Notes under the pieces: generated by a model
Database searches by the model: none
What the model was told of the DNA's origin: nothing
What the model saw: only the letters and a program-made list of their open reading frames with translations
Program-made: the position numbers and the translations under genes
In this document: piece after piece, positions 435-20,283 of the stretch
Numbering within the stretch: the first letter of the stretch is position 1
Layout of the letters: every line of letters begins with the position of its first letter
IMG/VR virus record: IMGVR_UViG_3300009151_000500
Coordinates: 1-20,738 of that record
Direction: 5' to 3' (one strand)
Length of the DNA stretch: 20,738 bases
Source: a virus

Positions 435-1349
435 ATGGCTGTTAATCTTTCAGCAATCAAGGATCTGCTCCTTCCCGGTCTTCGCGGCGTAGAGGGCAAG
501 TACGAGATGATCCCATCTCAGTACGACAAGATCTTTACGAAGCATGACTCAAAAATGGCTCTCGAACGTACCGCTGAAATGCGCTACCTCGGGTATGCCC
601 AGCTCAAGAACGAAGGTGGCCAGACCGCTTTTGATAACGGAGCAGGTGAGCGGTATGTCTACAATCAGGAGCACGTTGAAATTGCTCTTGGCTACGCGAT
701 TACCCGTAAGGCGATCGACGACAACCTCTACAAAACCCAGTTTGCACCTTCCAACCTCGGCCTGATTGAATCTTTCCAGCAGACCAAGGAAATCTACGGC
801 GCAAACGTCCTGAACACTGCAACGACTTACCAGAACCAAGTTGGCGGTGACGGTGTAGCACTCTGCTCCACTGCCCATCCGATCGACGGCGGTACTGTTG
901 CAAACCGTCCTACCACTGACGTTGACTTGAACGAATCAACCCTGCTTAACGGCATGATCGGCATTCGTACCCAGTTCCGCGATCAGGCAGGTCTGAAAGT
1001 GTTTGCTCGTGGTCGTAAGCTGGTTGTTCCTGCTCAGCTGGAACCAGTTGCAATTCGTCTGACAAAGACCGAACTGCGCCCGGGTACAGCAGATAATGAC
1101 GTCAATGCTATCCTCACGACCGCTGGTGGCTTGTCAGAAGGCTACATGACCAACGACTTCTTGACCTCTCAGTATGCTTGGTTCTTGCTGACCAACATCG
1201 ACGGTCTGTCGTACATGGAGCGCATTCCCTTCGAAACAGACATGCAAGTCGATTTTGTGACCGATAACTTGCTGGTTAAAGGGTATGAGCGTTACAGCTT
1301 CTCTTACTACAACTGGCGTTCGATCTACGGTTCATTCCCAACCTTCTAA
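435..1349 (+). CDS. Major capsid protein (HK97-fold, Mu gpT-like family)
   Basis: A 304-residue protein expected to form the icosahedral head shell. TAAGGAG at 419-425 includes the previous stop and provides a strong ribosome site 8 bases before ATG 435. Visible marks are an N-terminal acidic/basic helix region, the stretch NQEHVEIALGYAITRKAIDD around residues 80-100, a segment with ALCSTAHPIDGG near residues 145-157 followed by a Leu-rich helix (ESTLLNGM), and a C-terminus rich in Tyr and Phe. This order (helical N-arm, CSTAHP-like segment, then 'L..LV.P..LE..A') matches what I recall of Mu gpT-like major capsid proteins with the HK97 fold. No protease or scaffold gene is visible in the window; these would have to be upstream. 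Codon use looks GC-richer than in the fibre genes. The assignment rests on pattern and position, not on a search. Confidence 0.85.
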   Translation: MAVNLSAIKDLLLPGLRGVEGKYEMIPSQYDKIFTKHDSKMALERTAEMRYLGYAQLKNEGGQTAFDNGAGERYVYNQEHVEIALGYAITRKAIDDNLYKTQFAPSNLGLIESFQQTKEIYGANVLNTATTYQNQVGGDGVALCSTAHPIDGGTVANRPTTDVDLNESTLLNGMIGIRTQFRDQAGLKVFARGRKLVVPAQLEPVAIRLTKTELRPGTADNDVNAILTTAGGLSEGYMTNDFLTSQYAWFLLTNIDGLSYMERIPFETDMQVDFVTDNLLVKGYERYSFSYYNWRSIYGSFPTF

Positions 1350-1363: not shown

Positions 1364-2629
1364 ATGTCTATTACAGCTATCTCTGGTCCTCAAGTCGTAT
1401 TTGGGCAGAGCCCTTACACTCCTCTGGAATATAACCCAGAGCTCGGCCCATCGGCCTTCTATGCTGGCGCGGGGATTTTAGACCCCCGTGTCCCTTACAC
1501 CTACATTGCCGGGCAGAACTTCGGTGCATTTACGGGCGTTTGGTCAGGTTTTGATAACATCACGACCCTGAACATTGTCCCTTACACCAATGCTTCGGCT
1601 GCGGTTGTTGCTTCAGCTAACCCAACGTCAGCTACTTTGACGCTTGTGTCTTCTGCTTCAACGACAACTGGTGTTTCTATTGTCTCCCAGATCGCTCGTG
1701 CTGATACTGGTGCAATTGACACCAATAGTGGCGCAGGTTTTGTGGCACTTGACTCCTATGCTTCGGTGTCAGGCTACATTTCCAATGGTACTTCTGGTAC
1801 TGCTGGCAACGTCTTGATCGTAACCACGGCTGGTAACGGCCCTCTGGCGATTGGCATGGTGATCAGCGGAACTGGTATTGCGACTGGCACAACCATCACT
1901 GGTTTTGGCCCAACCGTAAATGCCTCTAACGGTAACTCTGGTGTTGGTTTCACTGGTTCTTACACTGTTAGCGGTCAGCCTGTTGCTGCTGGTACAAGCG
2001 GTTCGCCAATTACTATCACTGCGTCCTTAAACAACGCTTTGAGTGCTCCACTTTCCAACGGTATTCCGCAGGGTCAGGCTGGCACGATCAACTTGTGGAA
2101 CCCACAGGCTTTGCTCGGTCGTTGTTTGACCTACACTGCGGCTGCTTCTGCCACCTACACTACCATCACATCCACGGGTTACGACATCTATGGATGGCCA
2201 ATGACTGAAACTGCCACCCTCACGGCTGGTAGCACCGTCACTGGTAAAAAAGCGTTCAAGTATATCAAATCCATCACCCTTTCGGGCGGTACGGCTGATA
2301 CAACCCACGCTTACTCTGTTGGTACAAGTGCTCTTGTGGGCCTACCTATTCGCGCTGATTCGTCAGGCGAACTAACGGCTGCTGCTGCGGCTTCGTTGTC
2401 AGTATTGAACCCTGTGACTAATTTCACTGGTTTTGTTGCTGCCGATAATACCTATCCGACTGCCACGACTGGTGACGTTCGCGGTACAATTAACCTTGCC
2501 AATTCGTCAGGTGTTAATTTGACCCCATCTACGGGAACCAATCGCTATGTGGTTCGTCAATCGCCCCAGCCTTACAACATCAGCTCTGCTGCTGGTCTGT
2601 ATGGCAACACTCAATATGCCAACTTCTAA
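1364..2629 (+). CDS. Beta-rich virion structural protein, 421 aa
   Basis: Starting at ATG 1364 (GGAG 6 bases upstream) gives 421 residues. The N-terminal ~60 residues look specific to this protein (MSITAISGPQVVFG, then a Pro/Tyr-rich stretch with DPRVPY). The rest is Thr/Ser/Gly/Ala-rich with alternating hydrophobic residues, typical of beta structure, with no Cys, no membrane segment and no enzyme motif. Two modules stand out. A 'VISGTG...GTTITG...YTVSGQ' module (1796-2024) recurs in two other virion proteins here. A 'TSTGYD....MTET...FKYIKSITLSGG' segment (about 2116-2349) matches the pattern in the 230-aa protein at 3589. Directly behind the capsid gene and before a terminator, it is probably an abundant head or head-surface protein. 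I do not recognise a named family. Confidence 0.8.
   Translation: MSITAISGPQVVFGQSPYTPLEYNPELGPSAFYAGAGILDPRVPYTYIAGQNFGAFTGVWSGFDNITTLNIVPYTNASAAVVASANPTSATLTLVSSASTTTGVSIVSQIARADTGAIDTNSGAGFVALDSYASVSGYISNGTSGTAGNVLIVTTAGNGPLAIGMVISGTGIATGTTITGFGPTVNASNGNSGVGFTGSYTVSGQPVAAGTSGSPITITASLNNALSAPLSNGIPQGQAGTINLWNPQALLGRCLTYTAAASATYTTITSTGYDIYGWPMTETATLTAGSTVTGKKAFKYIKSITLSGGTADTTHAYSVGTSALVGLPIRADSSGELTAAAAASLSVLNPVTNFTGFVAADNTYPTATTGDVRGTINLANSSGVNLTPSTGTNRYVVRQSPQPYNISSAAGLYGNTQYANF
1796..2024 (+). repeat. Beta module family I, copy 1 (in the 421-aa protein)
   Basis: The encoded pattern is 'NVLIVT...G.L.IG..ISG.GI..GT.ITG' and then a Gly/Asn-rich stretch ending in YTVSGQPV. It aligns with copies at 5287-5475 and 17219-17427. 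The similarity is at protein level; the DNA has diverged. Confidence 0.65.
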
Positions 2630-2640
2630 GGAGTAGACCG

Positions 2641-3108
2641 ATGAAAGGTCATAAGGCACACCACGGGCACGGCCACCACGAGCACCATGCCCATCATGCT
2701 CACCACGCTCACCATGCTCATCATGCTCACCACGCCCATAAACATCACGGCGCAGAACATGCAGAACATGAATACGAGGAAGGCATGAAAAAGCATCACC
2801 GCAAGGCCCGTAAACACGGCGGCGCAATGGACCTTCCACATGAAGGTAAATTTGCATCGGATAAGGCACCTAAAGAAGTTTACGCAGGTGCTGGTTCTCA
2901 CGTTGTAAAGGAAGCAGAAGCCAAGAAGCGTGGCGGTCGTGCTAAAAAGCACCTCGGTCATGTCCACGGCGAACATGCTCACATGCGTCACGATCGTCCT
3001 GCCCGTAAGAGCGGTGGTCGTACAGGTTCCAACTTCAGCCCTTTGTCATCCGCACACAAAGGCACGGAACCTAAAAAGCACAAGTCCTATGAGCCTGAAG
3101 TCCACTAA
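2641..3108 (+). CDS. Histidine-rich basic protein with HHA tandem repeats, 155 aa
   Basis: ATG 2641 follows TAAGGAG in the end of the previous gene, a strong ribosome site. Residues 1-60 contain 26 His by hand count, including six consecutive His-His-Ala triplets (residues 15-32). The remainder is Lys/Arg/Gly/His-rich, with KKRGGRAKKH and RKSGGRTGSNFSPLSSAHKG. There is no signal peptide, membrane segment or cysteine. The C-terminal 'SGGR.G....PLSSAHKGT' pattern resembles small basic phage proteins that I recall in similar gene orders; the His-rich head is the unusual part. Possible roles, all inferred: binding divalent metal ions on or in the virion, pH-dependent interactions, or binding packaged DNA or capsid acidic surfaces. 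It is the last gene before the terminator, hence probably expressed at high late levels together with the capsid protein. Confidence 0.85.
   Translation: MKGHKAHHGHGHHEHHAHHAHHAHHAHHAHHAHKHHGAEHAEHEYEEGMKKHHRKARKHGGAMDLPHEGKFASDKAPKEVYAGAGSHVVKEAEAKKRGGRAKKHLGHVHGEHAHMRHDRPARKSGGRTGSNFSPLSSAHKGTEPKKHKSYEPEVH
2683..2736 (+). repeat. Six tandem 9-base units encoding His-His-Ala
   Basis: Each unit reads CAY CAY GCY. Units differ at third positions (CAC/CAT, GCT/GCC), and an 18-base pair of units starting CATCATGCTCACCACGC occurs twice. The peptide is perfectly periodic while the codons vary. Confidence 0.85.
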
Positions 3109-3134
3109 TAGGATTTCACTGGACTAGTTAAACG

Positions 3135-3166
3135 CGGGGGGTCTGCAACGACTCCCCGTTTTTTTT
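3135..3166 (+). terminator. Rho-independent terminator after the capsid block
   Basis: A 9-bp stem pairs CGGGGGGTC (3135-3143) with GACTCCCCG (3150-3158) with one G-T pair. The loop is TGCAAC, and eight T residues (3159-3166) follow directly. It sits in the only sizeable intergenic gap of the window (3109-3177), between the His-rich gene and the 82-aa gene. I see no convincing sigma-70 promoter in that gap. Either the terminator is leaky and lowers downstream expression, or a promoter of another type lies nearby. Confidence 0.88.
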
Positions 3167-3177
3167 AGAGGTGTATC

Positions 3178-3426
3178 ATGGCTAAATCCCCGGCTTGGCA
3201 AAGATCCGAAGGTAAGTCGCCTTCTGGCGGTTTAAATGCAAAAGGAAGGGCTTCTGCTAAGGCTGAAGGGCACAACCTAAAGGCACCTAGCAAAGACCAT
3301 GAAAACTCGCGCCACAAGTCTTTTTGTGAACGTATGACGGGGATGAAGCGCAAGCTGACTGGCGCAGCTGCTGCCGCTGATCCCAATAGCCGTATCAATA
3401 AATCACTTCGCAAGTGGGATTGCTAA
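3178..3426 (+). CDS. Small basic phage protein, DUF6321-like, 82 aa
   Basis: ATG 3178 is preceded by AGAGGTG at 3167-3173. The whole protein is basic and polar: WQRSEGKSPSGGLNAKGRAS near the N-terminus, a central HENSRHKSFCERMTGMKRK, and the C-terminus DPNSRINKSLRKWDC. The combination of 'SEGKSPSGGLNAKGRAS', 'SFC.RM.GMK' and 'D..SRINKSLRKW.C' is what I remember for the DUF6321-type phage family, function unknown. Two Cys are present (Cys50 and the last residue). The family is short and this copy looks full length. It lies just after the terminator and overlaps the next gene by one base (TAATG), suggesting translational coupling. Family recognition is from memory; no function is assigned. Confidence 0.85.
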   Translation: MAKSPAWQRSEGKSPSGGLNAKGRASAKAEGHNLKAPSKDHENSRHKSFCERMTGMKRKLTGAAAAADPNSRINKSLRKWDC

Positions 3427-3587
3427 TGACTGACAAGCCATTTTGGGATACAAAAGCACCTAAAGATCATGTGACCAAGCACTTGTCACGCAAGAAGGTA
3501 CAGCTGGCCAAAGCCCACGCACGTGCAGCGGGTCGCCCTTACCCCAATCTTGTTGATAATGCTGCTGTAGCGAAGAAGGGTAAATAA
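3426..3587 (+). CDS. Small basic phage protein, 53 aa
   Basis: ATG 3426 shares its A with the TAA of the previous gene, and the frame runs 53 codons to TAA 3585-3587, one base before the next ATG. The protein begins MTDKPFWDTKAPKD and contains KAHARAAGRPYPNLVDN before a Lys-rich tail ending KKGK. The segment 'A.ARAAGRPYPNLVDN' is a pattern I recognise from small proteins in aquatic phage genomes, usually beside the DUF6321-type gene, with unknown function. The tight overlap on one side and one-base gap on the other strongly support it as a real gene despite its length. No membrane segment or catalytic motif is visible. Confidence 0.82.
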   Translation: MTDKPFWDTKAPKDHVTKHLSRKKVQLAKAHARAAGRPYPNLVDNAAVAKKGK

Positions 3588-7746: not shown

Positions 7747-9558
7747 ATGACCACTGTTACGATCCCGAACCTTACAGCGGCTATTTCATTGAACGGTACT
7801 GAACAGTTAGAAGCTGTTCAGGCGGGGTCTACCGTTCGCGTTACAACTGCCCAAATTGCCACTTATACGTTGTCTGTTTCTAATAACGTGGTCAACTCAA
7901 TCAGTTTTGGTTCTACCGGGCTTACGCCTGCCACGGGAACAATCGGCAACGTAGTAGTTGCTGGTACATTGAATGTAGCCAATGGCGGCACGGGTGTTAC
8001 AACCAGCACGGGCACTGGATCTGTTGTTCTTAATACGTCACCAACACTTATTACGCCTGCTTTGGGCACACCATCATCAGGGGTAATGACCAACGTCACC
8101 GGGTTACCTTTAACAACAGGCGTAACGGGTGTTTTAGGGTCTTCAAATGGCGGCACAGGATTTTCAACATACGCCACTGGCGACCTTGTTTATGCAAGCG
8201 CAACGAACACGCTCTCAAAGCTTGGTATTGGCTCTAACGGCACTGTCTTGTCGTCTAACGGCACTACACTTAGCTGGGCTGCGGCGGGTACGGGTACTGT
8301 TACAAGCGTTGGTTTAGGATTTTCAACGGGTGCAGCCAATATTTTATCTAATAGCGGGACAGCATCCCCTATTACATCGTCTGGCACCTACACTCTAGCT
8401 GTGACAGGAACATCAGGTGGCATCCCTTACTTTAGCTCTAGCAGTGCTTGGACTTCTTCTGCTGCTTTGGCTGCTAACGCGATAGTCGTAGGTGGTGGCG
8501 CAGGTGTTGCACCATCGACAGTTACAACCAATGCTACCGTCTTAACGGCCATAGGAAGCGCACCAACAGGTACTGGTAGCATCGTGCTGTCTGCTGCGCC
8601 TACGTTTACAACATCCATTACAAGTCCAACCATACTTGGCGGAACAAGCACAAGCCAAACCTTAACGCTTCAATCAACAAGCGGTGTTGGCGCAACTGAT
8701 TCGGTAGTAATCAAGGTTGGCAATAACGGCGGCACAACGGCTCTAACGGCTGCATCAAGCGGTACAGTGACGATTGGCACGTTAAACCTTACAAACGCCC
8801 TTGGGACGGCTTACGGCGGCACCGGGCTCACATCTTTTACTGCGGCCAACAATGCCATCTACAGCACATCCTCGTCGGTTTTAACGGCTGGTACGCTGCC
8901 TGTGGCTGCTGGGGGCACTAACCTTACGTCCTACACCACTGGCGACATTCTCTATGCGTCAGGAAGCACAACCATTGCCAAACTTACAGCGGTGGCCTCT
9001 GGGCAGGTTTTAGCATCGGCAGGAACTGGAACAGCTCCCGCATATACATCGACGCCCTCGGTCACCTCTGTGACGTCTGCATCGCTCTATGGTGGCACTG
9101 CTGCGGCATCAACGCTGACTTTGCAATCAACCACTGCATCTAGCGGTACGTTTACAGATAGCATTGTACTCAAAGTTAACAATGCAGGATCTGTGACCGC
9201 TATGACGGCTGCCGCATCTGGCATTGTGTATTTTGGAACAACTACCACACCGACAACGGGTGCTATTGCACTGCCAACGGGCACTACTGGACAACAGCCC
9301 GGTACTGCATTGACAGGCATGCTGCGGTTCAATACCACCAAAACGTCATTTGAAGGCTATAACGGTACTTCATGGGCTTCTGTTGGTGGCGGCGCAACAG
9401 GCGGTGGAACAGATCAAATTTTCTACCTGAATGGGCAGACAGTCACCACAGATTATAGTATACCTAGTACCCAGAACGCTGGTACGTTTGGCCCTGTTAC
9501 AGTTAATGGCGGCGTGACCGTCACCGTTCCGTCTGGTTCAACTTGGAGCATTGTCTAA
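7747..9558 (+). CDS. Tail fibre protein with GGTG repeats, 603 aa
   Basis: ATG 7747 is one base after the preceding TGA. The N-terminus (LNGTEQLEAVQAGSTVRVTT) resembles the virion-attachment start of many phage fibres. The shaft is built of repeats with NGGTGVTT, SNGGTGFST, YGGTGLTSF and AGGTNLTSY, and 'GD.[LV]YAS' units, typical of extended trimeric beta fibres. A 47-49 residue unit with TLTLQST is duplicated (8638-8778 and 9091-9237). A GMLRFNTTK..FEGYNGTSWASV segment precedes the C-terminal 55 residues. This final module is nearly shared with the 269-aa protein at 16985. No enzymatic domain is visible, so it binds or supports receptor-binding proteins rather than degrading a polysaccharide, as far as sequence shows. 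Confidence 0.85.
   Translation: MTTVTIPNLTAAISLNGTEQLEAVQAGSTVRVTTAQIATYTLSVSNNVVNSISFGSTGLTPATGTIGNVVVAGTLNVANGGTGVTTSTGTGSVVLNTSPTLITPALGTPSSGVMTNVTGLPLTTGVTGVLGSSNGGTGFSTYATGDLVYASATNTLSKLGIGSNGTVLSSNGTTLSWAAAGTGTVTSVGLGFSTGAANILSNSGTASPITSSGTYTLAVTGTSGGIPYFSSSSAWTSSAALAANAIVVGGGAGVAPSTVTTNATVLTAIGSAPTGTGSIVLSAAPTFTTSITSPTILGGTSTSQTLTLQSTSGVGATDSVVIKVGNNGGTTALTAASSGTVTIGTLNLTNALGTAYGGTGLTSFTAANNAIYSTSSSVLTAGTLPVAAGGTNLTSYTTGDILYASGSTTIAKLTAVASGQVLASAGTGTAPAYTSTPSVTSVTSASLYGGTAAASTLTLQSTTASSGTFTDSIVLKVNNAGSVTAMTAAASGIVYFGTTTTPTTGAIALPTGTTGQQPGTALTGMLRFNTTKTSFEGYNGTSWASVGGGATGGGTDQIFYLNGQTVTTDYSIPSTQNAGTFGPVTVNGGVTVTVPSGSTWSIV
8638..8778 (+). repeat. Fibre shaft duplication, copy 1 (47 codons)
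   Basis: The encoded unit runs from GGTSTSQTLTLQST through DSVVIKV and LTAASSGTVTIG. It pairs with the 49-codon copy at 9091-9237. Confidence 0.75.
9091..9237 (+). repeat. Fibre shaft duplication, copy 2 (49 codons)
   Basis: The encoded unit runs from GGTAAASTLTLQST through DSIVLKV and MTAAASGIVYFG. It matches 8638-8778 with a short length difference in the middle. Confidence 0.75.
9391..9555 (+). repeat. Shared C-terminal fibre module, copy 1 (55 codons)
   Basis: The module starts GATGGGTDQIF and ends VTVPSGSTWSIV followed by the stop. It aligns without gaps to 17627-17791; I count 40 of 55 identical residues. Confidence 0.9.
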
Positions 9559-9559
9559 T

Positions 9560-10153
9560 ATGCCTATCAAACTCAACGGTTCCACATCAGGCTATAGCCA
9601 GCTTCAGGCGGCGGCAGTTGCGGCAAGCAATACGCTTACCCTTCCAGCCAGCAATGGCGCACTTGTGGCACAAAGCACGACCACTGCACCTACCAATGGT
9701 CAGATTCCTATTGGCAACGGCACGGATTACACTGCCGCAACTCTTACGGGCGGTTCGGGAATTACCATAACAAACGGGGCTGGGTCTATTAGTATTGCGC
9801 TGCCAGCACCCGGGGCTAACCAAAACTATTTAGTCAGCAACGGAACAAATTGGGTTTCAGCCGCTTTTGGTGCTTCTTCTCTTGCGGCAAATGGATATCA
9901 ACAGCTTCCAAATGGCCTTATCATCCAGTGGGGAACTTCCGCAGTTGCCGCTACTGCGGGTAGTTCCGCGACAACAACATTCCCAATTGCGTTCCCAACT
10001 GCTTGCCAAAGTGTTGTTCTTACTCCAACCCAAGCATCAGTTGTTACCCAGTATTCTCCGGGGGTCACTGCAAAAACAACAACAAACTTTACATACGGCA
10101 GTGCGGGTTCTGGTTTTGCCAGTGGGTGTCTTTACGTTGCAATCGGATATTAA
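9560..10153 (+). CDS. Tail fibre / receptor-binding protein with gp53-like C-terminus, 197 aa
   Basis: I choose ATG 9560, one base after the preceding stop; the in-frame TTG at 9551 overlaps the previous gene with no support. GGAG at 9544-9547 is the only nearby ribosome-site candidate, with a long 12-base spacing, so coupling to the upstream fibre is likely. The N-terminus (MPIKLNGSTSGYSQLQA, SNTLTLPASNG) and the GQIPIGNGTDYTAATLTGG stretch are common fibre sequences. The C-terminal ~90 residues start ANGYQQLPNGLIIQWG and continue with FPIAFPTACQSVV, which matches what I recall of gp53-like C-terminal fibre domains. These sit at the tip and probably contact the host. The preceding fibre may provide the shaft on which this one assembles. 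Confidence 0.82.
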   Translation: MPIKLNGSTSGYSQLQAAAVAASNTLTLPASNGALVAQSTTTAPTNGQIPIGNGTDYTAATLTGGSGITITNGAGSISIALPAPGANQNYLVSNGTNWVSAAFGASSLAANGYQQLPNGLIIQWGTSAVAATAGSSATTTFPIAFPTACQSVVLTPTQASVVTQYSPGVTAKTTTNFTYGSAGSGFASGCLYVAIGY

Positions 10154-10164
10154 GGATAAAGACA

Positions 10165-10494
10165 ATGATGCTTTACGCAAAATCGACTGGTGGGTTTTAT
10201 ACTGAAGAAATTCACGGGGCAAATGTCCCTCGTGATGCAGTTGTAATTTCTGCGGAGTTACATGCTTCATTGATGAATGGTCAAACTCAAGGAAAAACCA
10301 TTGTTGGTGACGATAATGGTTTTCCAATTTTGGTTGATGACCTTGCCGCAGTAAAGACTTTTGCTCAAGAACGTGCTGAAGAATACCCTGATTTTCGTGA
10401 TTACCTTGATGGTGTTGTGAAGGGAGATCAGGCTCAGATCGATGCTTATATTGCGGCTTGCTTGGCGGTAAAAGCCAAATACCCAAAGGTTTGA
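10165..10494 (+). CDS. Tail fibre assembly chaperone, 109 aa
   Basis: The start is ATG 10165 (ATGATG), with AAGGA at 10152-10156 eight bases upstream; the open frame continues further 5' but there overlaps the fibre gene without support. The N-terminal part (MMLYAKSTGGFYTEEIHG, then PRDAVVIS, LMNGQTQGKTIV, DDNGFPIL) is the classic layout of phage tail fibre assembly proteins. The C-terminal half (FRDYLDGVVKGDQAQIDAYI, CLAVKAKYPKV) is helical. Such chaperones help fibre C-termini fold and trimerise, and usually lie directly next to the fibre gene they serve. Here it follows the 197-aa protein by 11 bases and precedes another fibre gene by 4 bases, so either could be the client. It is acidic, soluble, and has no membrane segment. 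Confidence 0.82.
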   Translation: MMLYAKSTGGFYTEEIHGANVPRDAVVISAELHASLMNGQTQGKTIVGDDNGFPILVDDLAAVKTFAQERAEEYPDFRDYLDGVVKGDQAQIDAYIAACLAVKAKYPKV

Positions 10495-10498
10495 CACC

Positions 10499-11365
10499 AT
10501 GACAGTTACAATCAATGGAACGACAGGTGTAGCAGTCCCCCTTGGTTCGGCTGGTGCGCCGGGTGTGTCCAACACCACCAGTGCAACCACAGGCATCTAC
10601 AACCCGACCAGCACAACCCTTGGTCTTTCCACCAACGGGACACAGGCTGTCTATGTTGATGCCTCGCAGAATGTTGGCATTGGAACCAGTTCAACAGGTG
10701 CTGGGTATCGCATATCTGTCGTTGGTTCTGCGGCGTCATCTGTGCCGCTTTATCTACATTCTGATGCGACAAATGGATATGTGTATTCGTCAAACCCTTT
10801 GGTTATGGGTTCAACTGGCGCGTATTCTTGTAGCCTTGTAACCAATAATACAATTCAGATGACTATCGCCTCATCTGGTATCATTACAGGCACTGCTGGC
10901 AACTTGATGCTGGTGTCAGGAACCGCACAGGCATCTACCAGCGGAACCAGCATTGATTTTACGTCAATCCCATCTTGGGTGAAACGCGTTACAATTAATT
11001 TTTCCGGTGTTTCTACTAACGGGTCATCTCTTGTTCAGGTGCAAATTGGTTCTGGTTCTATTGTTACAACGGGCTATTCTAGCGGAGCTTCATCTGGTGC
11101 TACCGCAAATACGTCAACTACTGGGTTTCTTGCGACATCTAATATGGCCGCCGCCAACTCAATCACAGGAGCAATGGTGGTTAATTTGCTAACAGGCAAT
11201 TCTTGGGTTTGTTTTGGGGTCAGTTATTACACTGGTGTGGGGGCAGCACTAACTTTATTTAGTGGGTCAATATCACTCTCTGGAACCTTAGATCGGGTCC
11301 GTATCACCACTGTCAACGGCACAGACACCTTTGACGCTGGCACGATCAACATTATGTACGAATAA
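10499..11365 (+). CDS. Tail fibre-like protein, 288 aa
   Basis: ATG 10499 has AAAGG at 10485-10489 nine bases upstream. The N-terminal ~60 residues are a compact beta start (VTINGTTGVAVPLG, then TTGIYNPTSTTLGLSTNGTQ). NVGIGTSSTGAGYRISVVG marks the fibre motif 'VGIGT....YRL.V' that often precedes shaft or tip domains. The C-terminal domain begins around residue 145 (GTSIDFTSIPSWVKRVTINF) and ends FDAGTINIMYE; the 'DFTSIPSWVKR..I.FSGVSTNG' pattern is one I recognise from the ends of many phage fibre proteins. No Cys cluster, membrane segment or catalytic motif stands out. Probably an accessory or alternative receptor-binding fibre. It follows the chaperone closely and belongs to the same transcription unit. 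Confidence 0.82.
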   Translation: MTVTINGTTGVAVPLGSAGAPGVSNTTSATTGIYNPTSTTLGLSTNGTQAVYVDASQNVGIGTSSTGAGYRISVVGSAASSVPLYLHSDATNGYVYSSNPLVMGSTGAYSCSLVTNNTIQMTIASSGIITGTAGNLMLVSGTAQASTSGTSIDFTSIPSWVKRVTINFSGVSTNGSSLVQVQIGSGSIVTTGYSSGASSGATANTSTTGFLATSNMAAANSITGAMVVNLLTGNSWVCFGVSYYTGVGAALTLFSGSISLSGTLDRVRITTVNGTDTFDAGTINIMYE

Positions 11366-11376
11366 GAGGATTTACC

Positions 11377-12456
11377 ATGTCAGGCACATTACAAGCTACA
11401 GTCCTTAAAGACGGTGCGTCCTCTACCAACAACATCACGCTTGATGCCAGCGGCAATGCGACGATTGGCAACAATCTGACGGTGACGGGTACGCTTGCTG
11501 GAAACCCAACCACCACTGGCACGGTTGTCATGGGGTCATCATTTCTCCGCAACCGCATCATCAATGGTGCGATGCAGATTAGTCAGCGGGGAACAAGTTT
11601 TTCAACACCAGCAAGCGGCGCATATACGATTGACCGCTGGTTCATTGGATGGATTGGTGCGGCTCCAGCAACGGTCGCTCAAGTTTCCAATTCTGCTGGT
11701 TACAGGAACGCTTTTCAGGCAACTGGTGCTGCAAGCAACACAGTTCTTTCAATAAATCAAAGAATTGAATCGTATAATTGCTCAGATTTGTCTGGTGCAA
11801 CCGTAACATTTCAAGCAAATATTACGGTTTCTACCCCGCAAACTGTTTCTTGGTCTCTTTCATACCCAACGGCACAAGACAATTATACGTCATCAACAAC
11901 CATTTCAACTGGCACTTGGTCTGCTACAGCAACTGCTACAACATTTACGGCAACAATTACAAGTCTCCCAGCGGGGGCGGTAAATGGGTTACAGCTTGCG
12001 TTTTACCCGAATAATGGGGGTGCTTTTACATCTGGCACAATCACCATCACAGGCGTACAGCTTGAAGTCGGCTCTGTTGCCACGCCATTTGAACGGCGGC
12101 TGTATGGGCAGGAGTTGATGCTGTGCCAAAGGTATTTGCCAGCGTTTTCAGGGAACAATGTGTGGTTTCCTTGGGCCATAGCTACATCGACCACTACGGG
12201 ATACTTTACGGTAATTTATCCTGTTCAAACAAGAACTGCTCCAACTGGGTTAGTATACTCCAGCCTTTCTCATTTTAATGCCACAGATATTGTTGGATTA
12301 AACTCAGTCACAACTGCTATTACGTTTAACACATCATCTAACATGTCAGGTATTCATCAATGGTCAGTCGCTAGTGGTGCAACAACTGGAAGAACATCTA
12401 CCATTTACTCTGTAAATGCTTCTGCGTTAATTTATTTCACAGGATGCGAACTATGA
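11377..12456 (+). CDS. Tail fibre-like protein with NRIINGAMQ domain, 359 aa
   Basis: AGAGGA (11365-11370) lies 6 bases before ATG 11377, one of the best ribosome sites in the region. The N-terminal ~50 residues are a fibre-type repeat (LDASGNATIGNNLTVTGTLAG). Then comes FLRNRIINGAMQISQRG and YTIDRWFIGW, the start of a jelly-roll-like domain common in phage fibres and often suspected of carbohydrate binding. That domain ends at GVQLEVGSVATPFERR, followed by YGQELMLCQRYLPAF, a linker seen in the same family. The C-terminal ~110 residues form a separate beta tip ending YFTGCEL. Base composition in its middle is low (21 of 60 G+C at 11761-11820). It overlaps the next gene by ATGA. Confidence 0.83.
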   Translation: MSGTLQATVLKDGASSTNNITLDASGNATIGNNLTVTGTLAGNPTTTGTVVMGSSFLRNRIINGAMQISQRGTSFSTPASGAYTIDRWFIGWIGAAPATVAQVSNSAGYRNAFQATGAASNTVLSINQRIESYNCSDLSGATVTFQANITVSTPQTVSWSLSYPTAQDNYTSSTTISTGTWSATATATTFTATITSLPAGAVNGLQLAFYPNNGGAFTSGTITITGVQLEVGSVATPFERRLYGQELMLCQRYLPAFSGNNVWFPWAIATSTTTGYFTVIYPVQTRTAPTGLVYSSLSHFNATDIVGLNSVTTAITFNTSSNMSGIHQWSVASGATTGRTSTIYSVNASALIYFTGCEL

Positions 12457-18826: not shown

Positions 18827-19774
18827 ATGACCAAAACTAAAAGTGCTGACATCATAAAATTTACCACAGAAAACTTGCCAGACAGCGACTTGTCTGTTGA
18901 AGAAATCCTAGCCTACCGCAAAAAGCAATTCATTCAAAAGTCAGATGCCAAAACATCTCGGCGGCTGGTTGATATTAATGTCAAGCTCCAAGGCATTTAC
19001 GGTATCATCCATATGGGTGACCCACATGTTGACGATGACGGTTGCGATCTTGCCTTGCTTGAACACCACATGGATCTGACCAACATTACGCCCAACCTTA
19101 TGGCTGGCAATGTAGGTGATCTTCGCAACAATTGGATTGGCCGTCTGGCTCGTCTATATGGCAGCCAAGGCACAACAGCCAAACAAGGCCGCATGTTGAT
19201 TGAATGGTTCATGCGTAAGGTGAATTGGCTCTATATTGTCAACGGCAACCATGACTGTTGGAGCGGTGCTGATGATCCAATCAAGTGGCTGTGCAACCAA
19301 TTGGGTGTTCCAGATCAGGATCATGGCATTCGGCTTAACCTGAAGCACCGCACAGGCCGGGACATCCGAATTAACTGCCGCCATGACTTTGCTGGCCACT
19401 CACAGTGGAACCCAGCACATGGTGTGGCTAAAGCAGCTCAGATGGGCTGGCGCGATCATATTCTTGTCTGTGGTCATAAGCACGTGTTCGGCTATAACGT
19501 CACCAAAGATCCTATGACGGGGATGTGGTCACATGCATTGCGTATTGGCACCTATAAAATGTTTGACGAGTTTGCCGATGCCAAGGGTTTCCCTGATCAT
19601 AATCTGTCGGCATGCGTGACAATCATTGATCCTAACTCTGTTCGAGAAGAAGGCATTGTGACTGTGATCATGGATGTTGACGCCGCCGCTGAATGGTTGC
19701 AGTGGGCGAATCACCGTCAGTCTCAGCTAAAAATCGTAGAGCCTATTAGGAAGAGTGGGAGTTTCCGCAAATGA
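18827..19774 (+). CDS. Calcineurin-like metallophosphoesterase, 315 aa
   Basis: AGGAT at 18816-18820 serves ATG 18827. The metal-binding motifs of the family are visible in order: Asp65-x-His67 in HMGDPHVDDDG, Asp98 in AGNVGDLRNNW, Gly140-Asn-His142-Asp143 in NGNHDCW, His186 in CRHDFAGH, and Gly216-His217-Lys-His219 in VCGHKH. All residues expected for a two-metal phosphoesterase centre are present, so activity is likely; the substrate (nucleic acid, cyclic nucleotide or other phosphoester) cannot be told. About 55 residues precede the catalytic domain and hold a polar helical segment (DLSVEEILAYRKKQFIQKSD). The gene lies between the holin candidate and the endolysin and overlaps the endolysin start by ATGA, so it is translated together with the lysis genes. 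Confidence 0.9.
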   Translation: MTKTKSADIIKFTTENLPDSDLSVEEILAYRKKQFIQKSDAKTSRRLVDINVKLQGIYGIIHMGDPHVDDDGCDLALLEHHMDLTNITPNLMAGNVGDLRNNWIGRLARLYGSQGTTAKQGRMLIEWFMRKVNWLYIVNGNHDCWSGADDPIKWLCNQLGVPDQDHGIRLNLKHRTGRDIRINCRHDFAGHSQWNPAHGVAKAAQMGWRDHILVCGHKHVFGYNVTKDPMTGMWSHALRIGTYKMFDEFADAKGFPDHNLSACVTIIDPNSVREEGIVTVIMDVDAAAEWLQWANHRQSQLKIVEPIRKSGSFRK

Positions 19775-20283
19775 AAGACAATTGGGACGATGTGATTAAG
19801 TTGATCATCAAAGAGGAAGGCGGCTTCGTAAATGATCCGCAAGATCCCGGCGGCATGACCAACTGGGGTGTTACAAAGAAAACGCTAGAGGACTGGTGTG
19901 GTCACGAAGTTACTGAACAGGCTATGCGGAGCCTTATTCCTGCTGACGTCTATCCTTTATATAAGCAGCGTTATTGGGATGCTGTTGGGGGTGATGCTTG
20001 TCCTGCTGGTTTGGATTATGCGTTGATGGACTACGCCGTCAACTCTGGACCAAGCCGCGCCATCAAACACTTGCAGATTGTTTTAGACATCCCCCAGACA
20101 GGCAAAATGGATGATGCGACCAAAACCGCAATTGCTGCATGCGATGGGGCTGAGACGGCTTCAAAACTGTGCGATTATAGGTTAGAGTGGCTACAGAAAT
20201 TGCCCACATTTGCACGGTTTGGCAAGGGCTGGTCTGCCCGTGTCGGGCGCGTCAAAGAGAAAGCCTCCGACATGGAGGACTGA
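19771..20283 (+). CDS. Endolysin, GH108 muramidase with peptidoglycan-binding C-terminus, 170 aa
   Basis: ATG 19771 overlaps the phosphoesterase stop (ATGA); GGGAG at 19757-19761 is a ribosome site nine bases upstream. The N-terminal domain has KEEGGFVNDPQDPGGMTNWG, the GH108 signature; Glu16 in the EGG motif is the expected catalytic acid that cleaves the glycan backbone of peptidoglycan. YKQRYWDAVGGDACPAGLDY and MDYAVNSGPSRAIKHLQ follow in family order. The last ~80 residues (LQIVLDIPQTGKMDDATKTA, RLEWLQKLPTF, FGKGWSARVGRV) fit the PG_binding_3 domain usually fused to GH108. No signal peptide or signal-anchor is seen, so it needs the holin for release. The length is normal for the family. 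Enzyme for host lysis, or possibly also virion-associated. Confidence 0.93.
   Translation: MKDNWDDVIKLIIKEEGGFVNDPQDPGGMTNWGVTKKTLEDWCGHEVTEQAMRSLIPADVYPLYKQRYWDAVGGDACPAGLDYALMDYAVNSGPSRAIKHLQIVLDIPQTGKMDDATKTAIAACDGAETASKLCDYRLEWLQKLPTFARFGKGWSARVGRVKEKASDMED

Follow-up and report, generated by a model that had tools for sequence, protein, structure and literature searches.

A family of small basic KxGG proteins, histidine-rich in some lineages, encoded behind the capsid genes of uncultured bacterial viruses

A histidine-rich gene at the end of a probable capsid transcription unit

What does a short and exceptionally histidine-rich protein do in the capsid operon of a virus, and are the histidines its main point? 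The question is raised by a gene in a 20,738-nt stretch of viral DNA (IMG/VR record IMGVR_UViG_3300009151_000500, positions 1 to 20,738; here called the window), the relevant features of which are listed in Table 1. The product contains 37 histidines among its 155 residues and has a pI of 9.9, against a background of 0.8% histidine in the products of the other window genes. The open reading frame bears out the original prediction: histidine accounts for 26 of the first 60 residues, six perfect HHA triplets are followed by a Lys/Arg/Gly-rich part, and the repeat keeps an exact peptide period although its codons vary (CAC/CAT, GCT/GCC). At the DNA level the tract is a degenerate 9/27-bp tandem repeat, and composition-preserving shuffles of the protein gave at most three HHA triplets in a row in 200,000 trials. 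Net charge over the whole protein (K+R-D-E) is +11, and the calculated charge is approximately +11 at pH 7.5 and approximately +40 at pH 5.5.

Table 1. Features of the histidine-rich gene and its neighbours in the window.
Feature	Coordinates	Strand	Details and basis
Major capsid protein gene, same operon	435..1349	+	phrog_371 major head protein, E 1e-10
421-aa Ser/Thr/Gly-rich protein, presumed decoration or cement	1364..2629	+	By position only
Shine-Dalgarno sequence of the His-rich gene, AAGGAG	2628..2633	+	Sequence
His-rich, KxGG-containing basic protein gene	2641..3108	+	155 aa, ATG start
His-rich insertion, lineage-specific, extent approximate	2665..2805	+	Family alignment, column count
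Six HHA triplets (aa 15-32), degenerate 9-bp tandem repeat	2683..2736	+	Five in the closest relative
Conserved core DKAPKEVYAGAGSHVVKEAEAKKRGGRA with the sole predicted helix (aa 87-99)	2860..2943	+	Alignment, AlphaFold2
KxGG/HG/RHDRPARKSGG module	2929..3021	+	Common to the second, large KxGG protein after the portal in sister genomes
C-terminal motif TGSNFSPLSSAHKGT, conserved	3022..3066	+	Conservation in the family alignment
Putative intrinsic terminator ending the capsid transcription unit	3134..3166	+	Hairpin and T-run
Next gene, small basic DUF6321 / phrog_4689 protein, charge +11	3178..3426	+	Profile match

The histidine-rich gene is probably co-transcribed with the capsid gene, since the gaps are short (14 nt from the capsid gene to the 421-aa ORF and 11 nt from there to the histidine-rich gene) and no promoter-like site was found between the three genes. 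The 421-aa ORF is without a PHROG match; in DSL-LC04 and Pag-Yong1 the corresponding slot carries a 'cement' or 'minor capsid' annotation. A strong terminator had been predicted after the stop codon, and a terminator-like hairpin (3134-3159, -18.8 kcal/mol) with a T7 tail does lie 25 nt downstream of it; a comparable hairpin and T-run follows the family gene in 56 of 103 relatives. Membership of DUF6321 / phrog_4689 was considered for the histidine-rich ORF and rejected, as that profile matches the neighbour at 3178-3426 and not this ORF. A 53-aa protein with a phrog_34011 match and a charge of +9 is encoded at 3426-3587, also beyond the terminator, so that, counting the histidine-rich and DUF6321 proteins, there are three basic proteins in a row.

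A family holding the slot behind the capsid genes

An IMG/VR scan with the capsid protein as query yielded 80 loci, with a homologue of the histidine-rich protein downstream of the capsid gene in 58, a different short protein in 11, and neither in 11. The last group has little sequence past the capsid gene, leaving 69 assessable relatives (58 + 11), and the slot directly behind the capsid and decoration genes is held by the family in 58 of these. Absence from virions and from all relatives, or frame-disrupted repeats in relatives, had been named as refuting conditions; absence from relatives is contradicted by these counts, and no copy with a disrupted frame was found. Further scans extended the set to 145 loci encoding 109 distinct proteins of 80-185 aa. 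The window protein matches the family profile with an E value of 2.5e-34 (the profile includes the window protein itself) and shares the slot. Relatives among genome records, found with the capsid protein as query, include Rhizobium, Boseaceae and Acidisoma contigs (L174-L178 and L181) that carry members behind the capsid and decoration genes; contigs from metagenome-assembled genomes (Verrucomicrobia, Methylococcales and others) may be misbinned and were therefore left out as host evidence. The relatives in cultured Rhizobium strains make presence in the virion testable without a new phage isolate.

Searches with the protein and 43-64 relatives gave no convincing PHROGs, Pfam, NCBIfam or PDB match; the few weak ones (E 0.003-0.1) are to unrelated families, by one or two members each, and no known-family assignment was made from them. 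No homologue was found in named phages by tblastn, a search in which the BLAST low-complexity filter may hide relatives, and cultured Pelagibacter, Roseobacter and Caulobacter phages, with more distant capsid proteins, have no clear orthologue. By these sequence comparisons the family is an undescribed one, and most members of a large group of uncultured bacterial viruses carry it. Matches to the capsid gene of this phage group number at least several hundred in the viral collection.

In 11 relatives another short protein takes this position, which indicates that the family protein is replaceable. This alternative protein (RVGNKKPSM...VHGMPLMSAAAAKAK; e.g. L015:5490-5666, also L001:7499-7675) is possibly a very distant relative of the histidine-rich one. 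In another locus (L030:2746-3168) an HNH-type endonuclease-like ORF is located between the capsid and decoration genes.

A conserved basic core with predicted disorder

Family members share a core of approximately 95 alignment columns that starts with MKG and continues with an acidic-to-basic stretch (D.AP.EVYAGAGSNVVKEAE.RKxGGR) and a basic linker. Downstream of the linker are a module ending in (D/G)RxxRKSGGR and a C-terminal SNxNPLSSAxxGTxPKG motif. Among 390 GG sites, lysine occupies position -2 in 78% and arginine position -3 in 71%. All 109 distinct members carry a net charge between +3 and +15, and hydrophobic residues make up approximately 14%. An AlphaFold2 model from 64 sequences has a mean pLDDT of 53 and a pTM of 0.12, with one low-confidence helix and no strands, and the core protein is thus predicted to be disordered, or folded only on binding. 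A folded capsid decoration protein was set aside on the same values, with the proviso that the model is of low confidence and binding-induced folding is possible.

A second KxGG protein with matching modules

Sister genomes encode a further KxGG protein between the portal and GroES genes. It is present in all 30 of the longer records searched; the window does not extend far enough in the 5′ direction to cover this gene. The portal-adjacent protein is 180 aa long in Rhizobium and mostly 360-700 aa elsewhere, and has a Pro/Gly/Met-rich tail. Both proteins contain the (..RHDRPARKSGG..) module, in the C-terminal part of the histidine-rich protein and the N-terminal part of the portal-adjacent one, and its variants pair within a genome: RHDR with RHDR, RADR with RADR, HAGR with HAGR, and in Rhizobium RMDRPG with RLDRPG. 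Module similarity is 70.9 within a genome and 55.4 between genomes; the within-genome value was not reached in any of 20,000 permutations (n=21 after near relatives were collapsed, a set not fully phylogenetically independent), and the DR/GR class matches in 18 of 20 (Fisher p 0.0007). These co-varying modules provide a direct way into the question of how heads recruit minor proteins.

At the DNA level the two modules often share no more than 72-84% identity, and several genomes thus match at the level of the protein. In the window's sister genome, where identity reaches only 72% over the best stretch, a recent gene conversion is unlikely to account for the match by itself; an older one could, as far as the sequences tell, be the source. 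One ORF at a contig end (L038:5379-5906) joins a histidine-rich N-terminal part at RKSGG to large KxGG sequence, and is either an assembly chimera or a recombination product of the two KxGG genes.

The histidine fractions of the two proteins are also correlated (rho 0.73, n 21; 0.73 after GC correction), and do not follow those of the capsid protein (rho -0.29) or of other ORFs (rho -0.33). One large KxGG protein (L192:1363-3060) has CxCHKC motifs beside histidines (HHAECACHKCGGG, HHASCGCHKC), a possible metal site. The gene after GroES encodes an acidic product (net charge -4 to -18) that is a scaffold candidate by position.

Histidine gain, loss and selection

The closest relatives of the window, L009 and L010, have a capsid protein that is 100% identical by search and DNA approximately 92% identical over 5.3 kb. 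Their protein has five HHA triplets to the window's six, one in-frame unit having been gained or lost, and the comparison of repeat number among relatives that had been proposed as a check therefore reveals variation by whole in-frame units. Across the whole gene there are 24 synonymous and three nonsynonymous differences from the closest relative (dN/dS ~0.03), and all seven differing histidine codons are synonymous, with a neutral chance of at most 0.0005 even if only transitions are allowed. The family median dN/dS is 0.13 (99 close pairs); all these ratios are guides, as the pairs are non-independent and repeat alignment favours matching residues. The substitution patterns identify the ORF as a genuine protein gene under purifying selection, in line with the selection on the protein that had been suggested, and in the window's lineage the histidine stretch, on the codon evidence, is kept intact by selection; the elaboration is present in some lineages and absent in others.

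Histidines per protein range from 0 to 38 and track protein length (rho 0.89), which places most of them in inserted segments; 27 of the window protein's 37 lie in insertion columns, by column count on the family alignment. Core columns that hold histidine in some members are otherwise lysine or arginine in 40% of cases, against a 24% average. There have been at least 12 changes between histidine-rich and histidine-poor states on the capsid-gene tree, a count that recombination between the capsid and histidine-rich genes would inflate, and tree neighbours differ as widely as L162 (38 histidines) and L107/L109 (9-10). This pattern of gain and loss is a natural experiment on the role of poly-histidine in a virus. 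The histidine fraction drops as GC rises (rho -0.39); base composition was rejected as the cause because the link between the KxGG pair holds after GC correction, and simple Arg-to-His drift because arginine and histidine numbers are unrelated (rho -0.01). An explanation by habitat (acidic bog lakes), at which some contig numbers hint, was set aside because the search for sample metadata found none.

The HHA tract might instead owe its existence mostly to slippage and have no specific function, being tolerated in a disordered part of an otherwise functional protein. Such an origin agrees with the degenerate tandem structure of the tract, with the single-unit difference between near relatives, with the dependence on length and with the rarity of runs of three or more consecutive HHx triplets (only five of 109 members). 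It is nonetheless improbable given the purely synonymous histidine codon changes, the parallel histidine content of the second KxGG protein, and the histidines at basic core positions beyond the repeats.

The original prediction named a metal- or pH-responsive virion component, in which the tract would bind Ni, Zn, Cu or Co (to which Fe is added here) or switch charge near pH 6. The selection on tract histidines, their repeated gain and loss, and their co-variation with the second KxGG protein and not with other proteins are in keeping with such a component. However, the HHA part does not define the protein, as many orthologues occupying this slot have an unchanged core with 0-6 histidines, and no ordered metal site is predicted by AlphaFold2. 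A metal or pH response can therefore only be a lineage-specific addition and, with a family range of 0-38, is not the family's basic job; as the explanation of the protein it is unlikely. The other option offered there, a basic DNA- or capsid-binding protein, fits better.

Poly-histidine tracts on small proteins are also found in the bacterial cellular nickel proteins Hpn, SlyD (in its tail) and HypB, and no homology of the window protein to these was found. Phage tail fibres of the 'Ferrojan/Trojan horse' type can bind iron through HxH motifs (PMC11705849), and the window protein, likewise a histidine-dense phage protein, may hold metal. Such fibres are folded trimers with ordered HxH sites, whereas the window protein is predicted to be disordered, has HHx triplets and is encoded in the head operon, outside the tail-fibre block, and identification as an HxH tail fibre was rejected.

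A proposed place in the phage head

We tentatively favour the explanation that this protein of the head operon, small, disordered and strongly basic, is synthesised alongside the capsid and decoration proteins and most likely resides inside the head. It draws on the recurrent slot and terminator, basicity, predicted disorder and purifying selection, and on the second KxGG protein, the within-genome module match, histidine co-variation, the acidic scaffold candidate and the precedent of phage T4. We counted against it the lack of a homologue of known function in the libraries searched, the replaceable slot and the want of a clear orthologue in distant cultured isolates. From these genomic data we infer a virion location, targeting, DNA neutralisation and a role for the histidines, as follows. 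The conserved C-terminal KxGG...(D/G)RxxRKSGG module would act as a docking or targeting tag, and as it is common to both KxGG proteins, one partner (acidic scaffold, portal or shell) may recruit both during head assembly; the acidic product of the gene after GroES is a plausible partner. The Lys/Arg-rich disordered chain would help to neutralise packaged DNA, in the manner of the lysine contacts made by T4 internal proteins. Some lineages, including that of the window, would have added histidine-rich insertions and turned basic core positions to histidine, providing extra pH-dependent charge and possibly metal binding. A fuller version, with a two-protein, KxGG-tagged and head-packaged disordered system whose lineage-specific histidine tracts tie DNA condensation or release to pH or metal and whose co-varying tag couples both proteins to one head component, is speculative and decidedly improbable as a whole.

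The T4 internal proteins IPI, IPII and IPIII are small head proteins that touch DNA through lysines; they are diverse, have one short targeting sequence in common and enter the scaffolding core (PMC3012670). The KxGG family resembles them in small size and basicity, and as several T4 proteins share a targeting sequence, so one module, with a proposed targeting role, occurs here in two proteins. The T4 sequence is N-terminal whereas the KxGG module is internal or C-terminal, and mature IPI is folded whereas the window protein is predicted to be disordered. Neither the protein nor its relatives have a PHROGs match of standing to known internal proteins. Disordered basic R-arm or super-positive capsid segments are thought to offset genome charge (PMC7096446); the window protein differs in being a separate protein dominated by Lys/His and not by Arg, and assignment to this class was rejected on its threshold of +17 (PMC7096446), with the window protein at +11 and the family maximum at +15.

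Two other roles, that of an assembly factor that is not packaged and that of a host-directed protein, fit most of the same data. The assembly factor would bind the acidic scaffold or nascent capsid subunits during head assembly, as a disordered basic adaptor or chaperone, and would then be removed, perhaps by cleavage at KxGG sites. The position of the gene between the GroES, scaffold and capsid genes and the tail genes, the motif repeated in two proteins and the acidic scaffold candidate all suit this role, but neither a protease nor evidence of cleavage was found, and a place at the end of the capsid unit is more like that of decoration or minor head genes than of scaffolds; we regard it as possible but rather unlikely. 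Small basic disordered proteins are common among host-directed factors, and the product could be ejected or act inside the cell, e.g. by binding host DNA, RNA or membranes. T4 IPI* provides a precedent, being packaged and then protecting DNA in the host (PMC3012670). In the loci examined, however, the gene is always linked to the block of late structural genes, and the PHROGs, Pfam and NCBIfam searches gave it no match of standing; we regard a host-directed function as very improbable.

Elsewhere in the window, a series of mutually similar Gly/Thr/Ser-rich, tail-fibre-like ORFs occupies 7747-12456, with overlapping frames around 9551-10494. There is a weak metallophosphoesterase match at 18827-19774 and a clear glycosyl hydrolase 108 lysozyme at 19771-20283.
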